In this document: positions 32,727 through 51,416 of the stretch, piece after piece
Position numbering within the stretch: the stretch's first letter is position 1
How the letters are laid out: each line of letters begins with the position of its first letter
Assembly (NCBI RefSeq): GCF_039830135.1
Contig: NZ_CP156081.1
Location: 1,722,001 to 1,786,000, forward strand
Origin: Defluviimonas sp. SAOS-178_SWC
GTDB taxonomy: Bacteria > Pseudomonadota > Alphaproteobacteria > Rhodobacterales > Rhodobacteraceae
DNA: 64,000 nt
Direction of reading: 5' to 3'
Translations under genes and position numbers: made by a program
Notes under the pieces: model-generated
Told to the model about the DNA's origin: nothing
Database searches by the model: none
What the model saw: the letters and a program-made list of their open reading frames with translations, nothing else

Positions 32727-33871
32727 CAGCCGCGCTCGGCAAGAAGGGTGCGGGCGATGATCAACCGCATGATTTCGTTCGTGCCTTCAAGGATCTGGTG
32801 CACCCTGAGATCGCGAACGATCTTCTCGATCCCGTAGTCGGCGAGATAACCATAGCCGCCATGCAACTGCAGGCACTGGTTGGCGACGTCGAAGGCATTG
32901 TCCGTCACCAGCATCTTCGCCATCGCGCAGAACTTCGACGCATCCGGCGCCTTGTTGTCGAGCTTCCATGCCGCCTGGCGCAGGAACGTGCGCGCCGATT
33001 GGAGCTTCACCTCAAGCTCGGCCAACCGGAATTGCAGGGCCTGGAACTGGTCGATGGTCTTCCCGAACGCCTTGCGTTCACCCATATAGGCGAGAGTCGC
33101 GTCGAGGGCCGCCTGCGCCCCGCCGAGGGCCGATGCGGCGATGTTCAGCCGTCCGCCGTCCAGCCCAGCCATCGCGTAGACGAAGCCCTTGCCCTCTTCG
33201 CCGATCATATTTTCCGAGGGGACCATGCAATCGTCGAACTGCACTTGGGCGGTCGGCTGCGCGCGCCAGCCCATCTTGTCCTCGAGCCCGCCGAAGGACA
33301 GGCCCTTGGTGCCGTCCTCGACGATCACGGTCGAAATCCCCTTGGGTCCGTCCTCGCCGGTCCGCACCATCGTTACATAGATGTCCGAATAGCCGCCGCC
33401 CGAGATGAAGGCCTTGGCGCCATTGATCTTCCAGCCCTCGTTCGTCCGCTCGGCGCGGGTGCGCAAGGCGGCGGCGTCCGACCCCGATCCCGGCTCGGTC
33501 AGACAGTAGGAGAAGATCTTCGTCATCGAGGTCAGCGCGGGAAGCCAGCGCGCCTTCGTCTCGGCGCTGCCGAACTTGTCGATCATGCCGCCGCACATGT
33601 TGTGGATCGACAGGAACGACCCGACGGCGGGACAGGCCATCGCGAGCGCCTCGAACACCAGGGTCGCGTCGAGGCGCGTCAGGCCGGAACCGCCGTAGTC
33701 CTCGCTGACATAGATGCCGCCGAGGCCGAGTTCCGCGACTTTCGGCCAGAGATCCTTCGGGATCGTGCCGACCGCTTCCCAGTCCCGGGCATGGGGCGCG
33801 ATGTGGTCCGCGCCGAACGCCTTGGCCATATCGAAGATGGCCTGTTGTTCCTCACTCAGCGCAAAGTCCAT
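32726..33871 (-). CDS. Acyl-CoA dehydrogenase, probable isobutyryl-CoA dehydrogenase
   Basis: The protein has 381 residues from the ATG after GGGAGGGGAC. Motifs include YCLTEPGSGSD (FAD contact) and FISGGGYSDIYVTMVRTG, and the base Glu362 in LEGTNEIMRLIIARTLL, at the site used by short-chain enzymes. HGGYGYLADYGIEKIVRDLR is typical. It would oxidise isobutyryl-CoA to methacryloyl-CoA. The enoyl-CoA hydratase needed for the next step is not in this cluster. The promoter region carries two TTGCAA palindromes 11 bp apart and shares GTTTTGCAA with the mmsA promoter. Confidence 0.9.
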   Translation of the reverse strand: MDFALSEEQQAIFDMAKAFGADHIAPHARDWEAVGTIPKDLWPKVAELGLGGIYVSEDYGGSGLTRLDATLVFEALAMACPAVGSFLSIHNMCGGMIDKFGSAETKARWLPALTSMTKIFSYCLTEPGSGSDAAALRTRAERTNEGWKINGAKAFISGGGYSDIYVTMVRTGEDGPKGISTVIVEDGTKGLSFGGLEDKMGWRAQPTAQVQFDDCMVPSENMIGEEGKGFVYAMAGLDGGRLNIAASALGGAQAALDATLAYMGERKAFGKTIDQFQALQFRLAELEVKLQSARTFLRQAAWKLDNKAPDASKFCAMAKMLVTDNAFDVANQCLQLHGGYGYLADYGIEKIVRDLRVHQILEGTNEIMRLIIARTLLAERG

Positions 33872-36329: not shown

Positions 36330-37829
36330 TCAGTCCATCGCCTTGAAGTTGAACTCGCCGCCTTCCTTGATGCCCGACGGCCAGCGCGCGGTCACGGTCT
36401 TGGTGCGTGTATAGAACTTGAACGAATCGGGGCCATGCTGGTTCAGGTCGCCGAACATCGACTTCTTCCAGCCGCCGAACGTGTGATAGGCCAGCGGCAC
36501 CGGGATCGGCACGTTGACGCCGACCATGCCGATATTGATCCGGTGGGCGAAGTCGCGCGCCGTGTCCCCGTCACGGGTGAAGATCGCGGTGCCATTGCCG
36601 TATTCGTGATCCATGGCAAGGCCGATGGCTTCCTCATAGGTCTTGGCGCGCACCACCGACAGGACCGGGCCGAAGATCTCGGTCTTATAGATGTCCATGT
36701 CGCGCGTCACCCGGTCGAACAGGTGCGGGCCGACGAAGAAGCCGTTCTCGTAGCCCTGAAGCGAGAAGTCTCGGTTGTCCACCACGAGTTCCGCGCCCTC
36801 TTCGACGCCCCTGTTGATGAGGCCGAGGATGCGTTCCTTCGCCTCGCGGGTGACGACCGGGCCGAAGTCCACGTTGTCGCCGTCGGTATAGGGGGCGACG
36901 CGCAGTTTCTCGATCCGCGGAACCAGCTTCTCGATCAGCTGGTCGGCGGTCTTCTCGCCGACCGGCACCGCGACCGAAATCGCCATGCAGCGTTCGCCCG
37001 CCGCACCGTAGCCCGCGCCGACGAGCGCGTCCGCGGCCTGGTCCATGTCGGCATCCGGCATGACGATCATGTGGTTCTTGGCGCCGCCGAAGCACTGGGC
37101 GCGCTTGCCGTTCGCCGTGGCGCGGGAATAGATGTAGTGCGCGATGGGGGTGGAGCCGACGAAGGACACGCCCTGGATCGTCTCGCTGTCAAGCAGCGTG
37201 TCGACCGCCTCCTTGTCGCCGTTCACCACCTGGAACACGCCCTTTGGCAGCCCGGCCTCGACGAACAGTTCGGCCAGCATCAGCGGCACCGAGGGATCGC
37301 GCTCGGACGGTTTCAGGACGACCGAGTTGCCGCAGGCGAGCGCCGGGGCGACGTGCCAGAGGGGCATCATCGCCGGGAAGTTGAACGGCATGATCGCGGC
37401 CACGACGCCCAGCGGTTGGCGCATCGAGTAGATGTCAATGCCGGGGCCGGCGCCGTCGGTGTACTCGCCTTTCAGCATTTGCGGCGCGGCGATGCAGTAT
37501 TCGATCACTTCGAGGCCACGCTGAAGGTCGCCCTTGGCGTCCGGCAGGGTCTTGCCGTGCTCGCGCGACAGCGCCTCCGCCAGCTTGTCCATGTCGCGGT
37601 TGATGAGGCCGACCATGGCCATCATGACGCGTGCCCGGCGTTGGGGATTCGTCGCGCCCCAGGCGGGCTGGGCGGCGGCGGCGTTGGCGATGGCCGCCTC
37701 GGTCTCGGACTTCGATGCCATCGGGCATTTCGCCTGCACTTCACCCGTGGCCGGGTTGAACACGTCCGCAAAGCGGCCCGACGTGCCCTTCGCATGTTCG
37801 CCGTTGATCCAGTGGCTCAATTCTTTCAT
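36330..37829 (-). CDS. mmsA: Methylmalonate-semialdehyde dehydrogenase (acylating)
   Basis: The protein has 499 residues from the ATG after GGAGGTTTCC. This aldehyde dehydrogenase converts methylmalonate semialdehyde to propionyl-CoA with CoA and NAD+ in valine (and inositol or thymine) breakdown. Asn150 in MPFNFPAMMPLW and the nucleophile Cys281 in GAAGERCMAISVAV are intact. The MmsA-specific lack of the general-base Glu before the Cys fits the CoA-dependent branch, since GGAKNHMIVMPDAD replaces ELGGK-type motifs. It is divergent from a LysR gene with a 100-bp gap carrying TTGC/GCAA repeats. Confidence 0.95.
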   Translation of the reverse strand: MKELSHWINGEHAKGTSGRFADVFNPATGEVQAKCPMASKSETEAAIANAAAAQPAWGATNPQRRARVMMAMVGLINRDMDKLAEALSREHGKTLPDAKGDLQRGLEVIEYCIAAPQMLKGEYTDGAGPGIDIYSMRQPLGVVAAIMPFNFPAMMPLWHVAPALACGNSVVLKPSERDPSVPLMLAELFVEAGLPKGVFQVVNGDKEAVDTLLDSETIQGVSFVGSTPIAHYIYSRATANGKRAQCFGGAKNHMIVMPDADMDQAADALVGAGYGAAGERCMAISVAVPVGEKTADQLIEKLVPRIEKLRVAPYTDGDNVDFGPVVTREAKERILGLINRGVEEGAELVVDNRDFSLQGYENGFFVGPHLFDRVTRDMDIYKTEIFGPVLSVVRAKTYEEAIGLAMDHEYGNGTAIFTRDGDTARDFAHRINIGMVGVNVPIPVPLAYHTFGGWKKSMFGDLNQHGPDSFKFYTRTKTVTARWPSGIKEGGEFNFKAMD

Positions 37830-47689: not shown

Positions 47690-49849
47690 TCAGGTGACCG
47701 CGGCGGCGAAGGCTTCACGGTAGAGGGTGGAGAGCGCGGCGAGGGGGGCGGAGGCCGCGCCGAGCGTCACCGTCGTGCCGCCGAAGTGGCCGACCAGCGC
47801 CAAAGGCACCGACGCCGAATTGGCCGCCGCCGTCAGCGTGGCGATGTCGGATTGCCGCACCGCGACGAGATAGCGGGCCTGGTCTTCTCCGAAAAGGAAG
47901 GCGGTCGTGTCGGGGTCGATCTTCACCCCGATGCCCGCCGACTCGGCCATTTCGAAGGCGGCGAGCGCGAGGCCGCCATCGGAGAGGTCGGTCGCGGCAC
48001 GGACCGACTTGCGGTTGGCGCGAAGGAACTCGCCGTTCCGCCGCTCGGCGGCAAGGTCGACATGCGGCGCATCGCCATCTTCCCGTCCGAAGGCCTCGGC
48101 GAGAAGGGCCGACTGGCCGAGATGGCCTTTCGTCTCGCCGATGACGATCGCGACGTCGCCGTCTGACGGCAGGCCGGCGATGAGGTCGTCGAGCGAGTTC
48201 AGAAGCCCGACCGCGCCGATCGTCGGCGTCGGCAGGATGCCCTTGCCGTCGGTCTCGTTGTAAAGCGAGACGTTGCCAGAGACGATCGGCAGGTCGAGAG
48301 CGGAGCAGGCCTCGCCGATGCCTTTGATCGCGCCGACGAACTGCCCCATGATCTCTGGCTTCTCGGGATTGCCGAAATTGAGGTTGTCGGTCGCGGCGAG
48401 GGGCAGGGCGCCCACGGCGGTCAGGTTGCGATAGGCTTCGGCGACCGCCTGCTTGCCGCCCTCGACCGGGTTCGCCTTCACATAGCGCGGCGTGACGTCC
48501 GAGGTGAAGGCAAGGGCCTTGCCGGTGTCGTGGACCCGCACCACGCCCGCGCCCATGCCGGGCGTGCGGATCGTGTCGGCCATCACTTGCGTGTCATATT
48601 GCTCCCACACCCAGGACTTGTGGGCGTAGTTCGGCGAGCCGATAAGCGCCTTCAGCCCCTCGATCGGATCGATCTCCGGCAGGTCCCCGAGCGGCGCCGC
48701 GGCGGGCGTGGGCAACCAGGGCCGGTCGTATTCGGGGGCCGAGGACGACAGCTTCGACAACGGCAGGTCGGCCTTCACCTCGTTGCCGTGCAAGATCAGG
48801 AAGCGGTCCTCGGCAATCGTCTCGCCGACGATGGCGAAATCGAGGTCCCATTTCTCGAAGATCGCACGCGCGACGGCTTCCTTCTCGGGCTTCAAGACCA
48901 TGAGCATCCGCTCCTGGCTTTCCGACAGCATCATCTCGTACGCGGTCATATGCGCCTCGCGCTGCGGCACGTCGTCGAGTTGCAGCTTGATGCCAAGACC
49001 GCCCTTGTCGCCCATCTCGACGGCGGAGCAGGTGAGGCCCGCCGCCCCCATGTCCTGGATCGAGATGACGGAATCCGACGCCATGAGTTCGAGGCAGGCT
49101 TCCAAGAGGCGCTTTTCGGTGAAGGGGTCGCCGACTTGCACGGTCGGCCGCTTCTCCTCGATCGTGTCATCGAATTCGGCCGAGGCCATGGTCGCGCCGC
49201 CGACGCCGTCGCGCCCGGTCTTCGCGCCGAGATAGACGACGGGCATGCCGACGCCGGAGGCGGCCGAATAGAAGATCTTGTCGGCATCGGCGAGACCGGC
49301 CGCGAAGGCGTTCACGAGGCAGTTGCCGTTGTAGCTTTTGTGGAACCGCACCTCGCCGCCGACATTCGGCACGCCAAAGCAGTTGCCGTAGGAGCCGACG
49401 CCCTCCACCACACCCTTCACCAGATGCGCGGTCTTGGGATGATCGGGCACGCCGAAGCTGAGCGAATCCATCGCCGCGATGGGTCGCGCGCCCATCGTGA
49501 AGACGTCGCGCAGGATGCCGCCGACGCCGGTCGCGGCGCCCTGATGCGGTTCGATATAGGACGGGTGGTTGTGGCTCTCCATCTTGAAGATGACGGCCTG
49601 GTTGTCGCCGATATCGACGACGCCCGCATTCTCGCCCGGTCCGCAGATCACCTGGGGGCCCGTTGTCGGCAGCGTGCGGAGCCACTTCTTCGACGACTTG
49701 TAGGAACAATGTTCGTTCCACATCGCCGAGAAGATGCCAAGTTCGGTGAAGCTCGGTGCGCGCCCGATGATCTCAAGGATCCGCTGGTATTCGTCGGGCT
49801 TCAGCCCGTGCGCGGCGATCAGATCCTCGGTGATCTCAGGTTCCAGCAT
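47690..49849 (-). CDS. purL: Phosphoribosylformylglycinamidine synthase subunit II
   Basis: The protein has 719 residues from ATG 49849 (GGGGGATGGA upstream), the small PurL that works with PurS and PurQ. Motifs are [20 protein letters not shown], the [22 protein letters not shown]/Mg site, [20 protein letters not shown] and [19 protein letters not shown]. It converts FGAR to FGAM in purine synthesis. Neither purS nor purQ is in this window. The long frame upstream of the ATG is unsupported. Preceded by a long gene-free region. Confidence 0.95.
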
Positions 49850-50333: not shown

Positions 50334-50413
50334 AAAAAAAAGGCCGAGACAAGCTCGGCCCAAGTCCAACAGGGAGGTAGAAGGCGGTAAGAGTTGCCTC
50401 AACTATCGCCTTC
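50334..50413 (-). ncRNA. Candidate trans-acting small RNA (about 80 nt)
   Basis: On the minus strand, a TTGAAC (50448-50443) / 17 bp / TAAATC (50425-50420) promoter predicts a start near 50413. The RNA would begin with a 7-bp stem, GAAGGCG (50413-50407) / CGCCTTC (50386-50380), enclosing a second stem AGTTG-AGG-CAACT (50404-50392). An unpaired UACCUCCCUGUUGG follows, with CCUCCC complementary to Shine-Dalgarno sequences. A GGCCGAG / CTCGGCC terminator (50360-50342) and T8 (50341-50334) end it. It lies 98 nt downstream of the LysR stop. No family is recognised. Confidence 0.6.
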
Positions 50414-50419
50414 AAGTTC

Positions 50420-50448
50420 GATTTATGTGCGGTTTGCGAACGGTTCAA
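50420..50448 (-). promoter_or_regulatory. Candidate promoter of the small RNA
   Basis: Minus-strand TTGAAC and TAAATC with a 17-bp spacer place +1 exactly at the first base of the GAAGGCG stem. The -35 matches 4/6 and the -10 about 3/6 of the consensus. Confidence 0.45.
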
Positions 50449-50500
50449 GAAAAATCATGCCGCAGGCGCAACATGGCCGCTATGCGTTGCAGGCATGCCT

Positions 50501-50523
50501 CACCGCAACCTCAGGTTGCGGTG
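50501..50523. other. Perfect inverted repeat around the LysR stop codon
   Basis: CACCGCAACC-TCA-GGTTGCGGTG is a 10-bp perfect palindrome whose 3-nt loop is the LysR gene's stop (TGA on the minus strand). A 10-bp palindrome AGGCATGCCT lies next to it (50491-50500). It is not followed by T's. Confidence 0.6.
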
Positions 50524-51416
50524 TCATCCACGCGCCGTTTTCGATATGCGATGATCTCTTCCATCACGAAATCCCGGAACGCCGCAATGCGCTTCGAGTG
50601 GCGCAGTTCCTCGGGGTAGGCGAGGAACACCGGAACCTCGCTCGATTCCACTTCCGGCAAGACACGGACGAGGTTCGGGAAGTCTTCCGTCAGGTAATCC
50701 GGCAGAACACCGATGCCGAGATTGAAGAGCACCGCCTGCAAGACGCCGTAATAGTTGTTCACGGTCAGCGTGGAGCGAATGTCCTGCGCCAGCAGGCTCT
50801 GCACGAGCGTCGCGCCCGCGGCGACCTGCGCCGTCGAGGGGTTCTGGCTGATCAGCCGGTGTTCCGGGATGTCCTCCAGCCCGCTCGGCGATCCCCAGGT
50901 TGCGAGGTAGTCGGCCGTCGCATAAAGCCGCATCCGGACGCTCATCAGCCGGCGGCGGATCAGGTCCGCCTGACTGGGCTCCTTCATCCGGATCGCGACG
51001 TCCGCCTCGCGCATCGGGAGGTCGAGCACGCGCTCCTCCAGCATCAGGTCGATCTTCAGGTCAGGGTATTTCTCGTACAGCTTGCCGAGGCGCGGGGCGA
51101 GCCAGAGCGTCCCGAACCCGGTCGTTGTCGTGACCCTGAGTTCGCCGAAGACCTCGTCCTCGCTGTCGCGGATCCGTGCCGAGGCCGTCTCGAGCCGCCG
51201 GTTCATCGACGAGGTGGCGTCGAAGAGAAGTTCCCCCTGTTCGGTGAGAATCAGTCCCCGCGCGTGGCGGTGGAACAGCGTGGTGTTGAGGCTCTCCTCA
51301 AGCGCGCGGATCTGCCGGCTCACGGCGGATTGCGACAGGTGCAACGCTTCGCCCGCATGGGTGAGAGAGCCCGCATCCGCGACCGCGTGAAATATTCTGA
51401 GCTTGTCCCAATCCAT
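50511..51416 (-). CDS. LysR-family regulator, divergent from the indolepyruvate oxidoreductase gene
   Basis: This 301-residue protein has the LysR HTH at 1-60 (LRIFHAVADAGSLTHAGEAL, LSQSAVSRQIRALEESL) and an effector domain at about 90-295. The N-terminal half is close to GcvA/IciA-like members. The divergent arrangement with the fused indolepyruvate ferredoxin oxidoreductase gene, plus a palindromic T-N11-A site at that promoter, suggests that it regulates that enzyme in response to an aromatic amino-acid metabolite. The stop is embedded in a perfect hairpin, and a candidate small RNA follows. Confidence 0.9.
   Translation of the reverse strand: MDWDKLRIFHAVADAGSLTHAGEALHLSQSAVSRQIRALEESLNTTLFHRHARGLILTEQGELLFDATSSMNRRLETASARIRDSEDEVFGELRVTTTTGFGTLWLAPRLGKLYEKYPDLKIDLMLEERVLDLPMREADVAIRMKEPSQADLIRRRLMSVRMRLYATADYLATWGSPSGLEDIPEHRLISQNPSTAQVAAGATLVQSLLAQDIRSTLTVNNYYGVLQAVLFNLGIGVLPDYLTEDFPNLVRVLPEVESSEVPVFLAYPEELRHSKRIAAFRDFVMEEIIAYRKRRVDDTAT

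Follow-up and report, generated by a model that had tools for sequence, protein, structure and literature searches.

Does the minus strand downstream of a LysR-family regulator gene in Defluviimonas sp. SAOS-178_SWC encode a genuine small RNA, and if so, which one? A first-pass annotation of the window (the 64,000-nt stretch of DNA analysed here) had proposed an undescribed small RNA at this site. Judged from its sequence, the locus is a genuine small RNA gene on the minus strand, namely the SorY orthologue of this organism, about 80 nt in length (50334-50414). We base the assignment on homology, common gene neighbourhood, and conserved promoter and structure, while the steps involving stress, Hfq and targets are ones that we infer. 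The explanation as a whole, a SorY (RSs1543) orthologue that would be RpoH-driven and Hfq-assisted and would cover Shine-Dalgarno sequences of transporter mRNAs with its CCUCCC, we consider quite probable.

At gathering score, Rfam gave no match in the 64-kb window, so that a lower threshold mattered. Below it, the SorY model (RF02651) aligned over its full length (positions 1-83 of 83) with the minus strand at about 50414-50334, with 57.6 bits (E 2.5e-11) compared to a gathering score of 111. The second-best match of the RNA was SorX (RF02784) with 36.9 bits (E 1e-7), likewise below its gathering score of 46.6. RF00519 (suhB/mmgR) stayed at 20 bits versus a cut-off of 41, and asX2, suhB and other Rfam models lay far under their own gathering scores at this locus. 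When 198 genomes of the family were searched with RF02651, 185 had a match at E <= 1e-3, a number that counts SorY- or SorX-type matches and not SorY only, because SorX-type copies can match RF02651 too; one genome exceeded the Rfam cut-off. As 1 of 198 genomes reaches 111 while 185 match, we regard this cut-off as one placed close to the R. sphaeroides sequence for the purpose of naming, and not as a biological feature. Our claim is accordingly worded as "orthologue of SorY", not as "curated Rfam member".

The sole genome above the cut-off (G095) has its match at C4:1632645-1632727, and one of its proteins shows complete identity over 352 aa with PDB 2hzk, which we take to be TakP of R. sphaeroides. 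According to the accessible part of PMC6238624, SorY of R. sphaeroides starts at genome position 1,632,642, which is three bases ahead of the G095 match. From this coordinate and the 2hzk-identical protein we infer that G095 represents R. sphaeroides 2.4.1 or a strain nearly identical to it. A LysR orthologue (80% identical) lies upstream of the RNA at this locus (L169), and PurL (92% identical) follows 230 nt downstream. The RF02651 match thus sits at the published SorY start with LysR upstream and PurL downstream, and the window RNA is therefore a SorY orthologue; the model match, the G095 locus and the neighbourhood together contradict the label "undescribed". The papers on SorY and SorX are reportedly Adnan 2015 and Peng 2016. 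CCUCCCUGUUGG was found in none of the openly licensed PMC papers searched, and RSs1543 in one of them. In P. denitrificans, "intergenic 134", an RNA of 84 nt whose context is given in the available part of PMC5107571 as that of a putative R. sphaeroides RNA, may be of the SorY type, and the part of the R. pomeroyi RNA list seen in PMC4809877 holds no entry assignable to a SorY-type RNA.

In the window, the upstream LysR-family regulator (PF00126 and PF03466) occupies 50511-51416 and the downstream PurL gene (NF002290, 969.6 bits; start codon tentative) 47690-49846, both on the minus strand. Our own model R1, built partly from window sequence, has the RNA as its only match in the window. The RNA is conserved in relatives: a DNA search of 61 genomes found it in 33, with all 22 genomes of the genus and 11 of the 15 remaining ones from the family carrying it, but none of the 24 remaining ones from the class. 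Among the 12 best-scoring RF02651 loci (L169-L180), 11 have LysR upstream; the linkage is not universal, since L173, with a SorY-like RNA of 87.2 bits, shows no LysR match in its 3 kb. Scanning named genomes for the core together with GGCC yielded at least 118 stretches, with 119 core matches among those listed, nearly all from Rhodobacteraceae/Rhodobacterales by record titles. Exceptions by title are one Corynebacterium (L111) and a few unplaced alphaproteobacteria or other labels (Maritalea). A LysR orthologue precedes 79 of the 119 listed core matches (E 1e-5) at a median distance of 156 nt (range 110-989). At a stricter E-value of 1e-10, 77 listed named sites are linked; L064 and L118, whose contigs carry no more than about 30 LysR residues, could account for the difference. 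PurL lies downstream on the same strand in 54 of these 77 listed sites, and in 47 of the 58 listed LysR-linked sites whose downstream DNA extends for at least 1500 nt, versus 2 of 42 listed sites without LysR. Of the listed sites without LysR, those inspected visually were mostly SorX-like. In L029, two SorY-like copies stand in tandem on the minus strand (1319-1399, 50.0 bits, beside 1502-1571, 63.9 bits).

Upstream of the RNA, the first-pass annotation had pointed out TTGAAC (50448-50443) and TAAATC (50425-50420) at a distance of 17 nt. These letters are present, and the promoter does begin past the LysR stop at 50511, as had been claimed. Its reading as a sigma-70 promoter has to be given up, as a sigma-70 scan found none at the locus and the spacing fits an RpoH promoter. 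The accessible text of PMC3441632 describes RpoHI/RpoHII promoters as having TTG at -36 to -34, with A-12, C-37 and T-9 over-represented for RpoHI, and C-14 and T-13 for RpoHII. The predicted RpoH-type promoter of the window (minus strand, 50421-50449; CTTGAA at 50449-50444 and CATAAAT at 50427-50421) has exactly the described RpoH spacing as well as C-37, T-13, A-12 and T-9, but an A at -14, and the spacing is the same at L169. The promoter thus fits the RpoH type (heat/oxidative stress), not sigma-70. A transcription start had been put at 50413; a start close by is retained, and carrying over the mapped R. sphaeroides start would place it at about 50414.

This promoter spacing accompanies the LysR linkage. 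TTG-N20-TAnnT was found upstream of the core in 114 of 123 listed LysR-linked sites, which include repeats (e.g. L149 = L001, L054 = L012), whereas 50 shuffles gave a mean of 1.2 and a maximum of 5; with repeats removed, 105 of 114 distinct listed LysR-linked core sites have it. Among the listed named sites, it is present in 70 of 79 with LysR and in 1 of 39 without (L116, near a contig end, being left out). RpoH-type spacing occurs among the listed sites without LysR in L048, L064, L116 and L118; L064 and L118 have a LysR fragment at the contig end, and in L116 the core is 76 nt from the contig end.

As to the sigma factor, the genome has one RpoH over the cut-off, and the same was seen in all seven genomes of the genus that were checked (G000, the genome of the window, and six others). 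The other match in these genomes, at about 142 bits in a frame of 681-710 aa, is probably RpoD, and no second RpoH match above 143 bits was found in any of the seven. G095 has two RpoH matches, one of 372.4 bits and one of 271.7 bits, which we interpret as RpoHI and RpoHII. Because no RpoHII-like match occurs in the genus sample, SorY in this organism is probably driven by the RpoHI type alone.

The RNA itself is predicted to fold into two hairpins (80-mer 50413-50334: -29.6 kcal/mol, z -3.25, with 0 of 200 shuffles as good). The proposed pairing of GAAGGCG (50413-50407) with CGCCTTC (50386-50380) holds, and the outer helix extends to 11 positions (5' arm 50403-50413, 3' arm 50380-50390, both on the minus strand), as assigned from pairing and covariation in 32 curated sequences. 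In this alignment (A2), whose members were picked for a recognisable 5' arm, a choice that favours structure, the outer helix is 89.7% paired, and both partners have changed in 6 of its 11 pairs. A2 contains 40 cells with such two-sided changes, compared to 13.1 +/- 4.2 in shuffles (0 of 500 as high) and 6-15 with slid partners. A further alignment (A3) comprises 88 distinct matches from 87 further loci, is model-aligned and hence leans to the model, and includes L075, which repeats L005 of A2. There, both-side changes were seen in all 11 outer pairs and in all 3 pairs of an inner GAG/CTC stem, so that the compensatory changes sought in the outer stem of relatives were found. An inner AGTTG/CAACT stem, suggested earlier, has its letters in place and is 64.5% paired, with 89 of 500 shuffles as high; it is without covariation support and is replaced by the covarying hairpin GAG-GCAA-CTC (50391-50400, minus strand; 50400-50398 with 50393-50391). 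The GGCCGAG/CTCGGCC hairpin (50342-50360, minus strand; arms 50360-50354 and 50348-50342) followed by T8 (50341-50334), in which the RNA would end, is present as described. Its cells are 100% paired in A2 and again in A3, and the 3' end scores as a strong intrinsic terminator.

At 90 distinct LysR-linked sites, the 40 nt that precede the core are more stably folded than their mononucleotide shuffles (median z -2.68; 89 of 90 below -1). These sites have ids outside A2, and seven of them repeat A2 DNA (L054, L075, L149, L159, L162, L164 and L176). A control stretch further upstream also folds better than shuffles, to a lesser degree (median z -1.14; 49 of 91 below -1). The ORFs that overlap the RNA are of the mechanical kind, and none was shown to be a gene.

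Between the two hairpins lies the core ACCTCCCTGTTGGA (50365-50378, minus strand), identical in the aligned relatives, which were chosen by the core. It includes the anti-Shine-Dalgarno motif CCTCCC (50377-50372). The motif had been described as unpaired; its presence is clear, whereas its exposure is moderate, with a mean unpaired probability of 0.65 in the ensemble. ACCTCCCTGTTGGACT shows no variation across the aligned rows (29 of 29 and 32 of 32), these rows being chosen by its first 14 bases. One of 30 loci (L018), whose core is changed, was not taken into alignment A1, yet it scores 77.2 bits against the model. The core ACCUCCCUGUUGGA is common to SorY and SorX. A SorX-like copy with the core TCCTCCCTGTTGGA, one base off, was found elsewhere in the same genome (G000:C2:396290-396333; L150:1501-1544, plus strand), directly 3' of an OmpR-type response-regulator gene. 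As far as PMC6238624 and PMC9438474 could be consulted, SorX is a cleavage product of the 3' UTR in an OmpR-type regulator mRNA, is Hfq-bound and stress-induced, and acts on transporter mRNA. A third core match, TCCTCCCTGTTGGA at G000:C2:3900986-3900999 (L151), is followed by a GC-rich hairpin with no T-run, and the model covers only its positions 37-73 (36.0 bits); it could be a remnant or a chance match. In L032, two SorX-like cores occur about 115 nt apart (3775 and 3890).

The near-identical core, a terminator of the same kind and the SorX match of 36.9 bits (E 1e-7) could suggest that the window RNA is a SorX copy instead of SorY, or that both are one interchangeable gene. With a SorY score 20 bits higher, an own promoter and LysR neighbour in the window, and a separate SorX-like copy adjoining the OmpR-type regulator gene (L150), we hold this to be very improbable. 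Even less probable is that the RNA is nothing but the region where the LysR mRNA terminates and lacks a function of its own, although the intrinsic terminator is strong and upstream stretches also beat shuffles somewhat (median z -1.14): a conserved promoter lies between LysR and the RNA, the 5' hairpin covaries, and the studied orthologue has a mapped start. The same conserved promoter makes an origin from the 3' UTR, one of two options offered in the first-pass annotation, unlikely, while the other, a small RNA that is independent, has a terminator and is expressed from a promoter of its own, agrees with the predicted features.

For R. sphaeroides, the parts of PMC8307010, PMC5036791 and PMC6238624 at hand describe SorY as RpoHI/RpoHII-dependent, Hfq-bound, expressed from its own promoter and acting on takP. 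The R. sphaeroides takP start pairs with a SorY segment across the Shine-Dalgarno sequence (-25.8 kcal/mol). A TakP orthologue was not found in the Defluviimonas genome (best match 37.7%), so that targets would have to differ from takP here. Pairing beyond the Shine-Dalgarno sequence is unsupported in eight takP orthologues (89 of 200 flank shuffles as low), and in 11 L188 orthologues 177 of 200 were as low. The corresponding numbers were 16 of 200 for R. sphaeroides takP alone, 54 of 200 for the DctP gene L268 of the genome itself, and 169 of 200 for 70 background starts. Complements of the core (12-mer) are not enriched in the genome, with 13 sites, at least two of which are the SorY and SorX copies themselves, versus 12 in a reversed control.

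Start regions gave a different picture for one gene class. GGGAGG-N3-10-ATG precedes 10 of the 19 DctP genes in the genome versus 8 of 383 genes (Fisher 1.3e-10), the latter background being a 464-kb sample with crude gene calls. Shine-Dalgarno sequences of DctP genes are strong in general (GGAGGA: 12 of 19 vs 12 of 383), and within NGGAGG the first base is G in 10 of 15 DctP cases vs 8 of 31 in the background. The longer CAACNGGGAGG-N3-10-ATG occurs at 44 sites in 22 genomes, compared to 6 in a reversed control. Of the 31 sites that were read, 9 are antisense to the RNAs themselves and 3 stand before frames under 40 aa; the other 19 frames include 6 solute-binding-protein genes from five Pfam families and 13 that are not. 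In the Defluviimonas genome, both CAACNGGGAGG sites not antisense to SorX belong to solute-binding-protein genes (DctP and SBP_bac_5). These starts are suggestive of solute-binding-protein genes as targets, and the best candidates are the DctP gene starting at G000:C2:1317463 and the SBP_bac_5 gene starting at G000:C2:2397171 (minus); the latter has 49% identity to its best match elsewhere in the genus. Within the window, GGGAGG-N3-10-ATG starts occur at two genes (36333-37829 and 32729-33871, minus), which are possible local targets.

Taken through its steps, the proposed mechanism would begin with stress activating an RpoH sigma factor, which would use the RNA's own promoter to make a transcript of about 80 nt. 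This RNA would be protected by its hairpins, and Hfq, the gene of which is encoded in the genome, would assist it by analogy to R. sphaeroides. CCUCCC would then cover the GGGAGG Shine-Dalgarno sequence of mRNAs for TRAP/ABC periplasmic solute-binding proteins and thereby lower their translation or stability. Such targeting of transporter mRNAs, published for takP in R. sphaeroides, is the most likely reading for this organism as well, and control of many mRNAs, as envisaged in the first-pass annotation, is plausible. Alternatively, the RNA could be SorY by descent with a changed role in the genus, i.e. an RNA belonging to the heat-shock sigma factor and acting mainly on targets other than transporters. 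The single RpoH in 7 of 7 genomes of the genus (vs 372.4 and 271.7 bits in G095), the TakP orthologue not found in the genome, core complements without genome-wide enrichment and the 13 of 19 non-solute-binding frames behind CAACNGGGAGG point that way, whereas both genuine CAACNGGGAGG starts in the genome are solute-binding-protein genes and DctP genes are rich in GGGAGG starts; we regard a changed role as possible but rather doubtful.

Compared to known systems, R. sphaeroides SorY (RSs1543, RF02651) resembles the window RNA in the full-length model match, the LysR/PurL context, promoter spacing, core and terminator, whereas the sequence of the 5' hairpin differs (57.6 bits vs the cut-off of 111). 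A further difference is that the former depends on RpoHI/RpoHII, while no RpoHII-like factor was found in our genus sample and no TakP orthologue in the genome. SorX (RSs2461, RF02784) has the same core and terminator type but is processed out of an OmpR-type regulator mRNA (3' UTR), unlike the window RNA with its own promoter after LysR. The cuckoo RNAs CcsR1-4, to which the locus had been likened, carry a C-rich anti-Shine-Dalgarno loop; they are RpoH-dependent and Hfq-bound, as would be the window RNA. Their four homologous copies are cotranscribed with ccaF1, as stated in the accessible part of PMC8307010. The window RNA is set apart from them by place, adjoining LysR and PurL and not the 3' UTR of ccaF1. 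GcvB and AbcR, small RNAs acting at the ribosome-binding site to damp many transporter mRNAs, are alike in mode of action, and no homology to them is claimed.

SorY as such is already known from R. sphaeroides, the only species covered by the SorY literature found in openly licensed PMC; presented here is its orthologue at the same chromosomal spot in many relatives. Automatic Rfam annotation misses most SorY/SorX-type RNAs, because a single genome out of 198 attains the gathering score of 111 while 185 match. Speculatively, SorY and SorX might be two branches of an old Rhodobacteraceae system with the near-fixed seed ACCUCCCUGUUGGA and differing biogenesis (own RpoH promoter vs 3'-UTR processing), jointly forming a stress-gated brake on many TRAP/ABC solute-binding proteins, with TRAP Shine-Dalgarno sequences tuned to GGGAGG; in this genus, with no RpoHII-like factor found, the brake would have passed to the heat-shock sigma factor. 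With the LysR-SorY-PurL neighbourhood, the RpoH-type promoter and the fixed seed as markers, the RNA can be annotated in many other species and its targets compared between them, and the GGGAGG bias of TRAP-transporter genes provides a concrete class of candidate targets.
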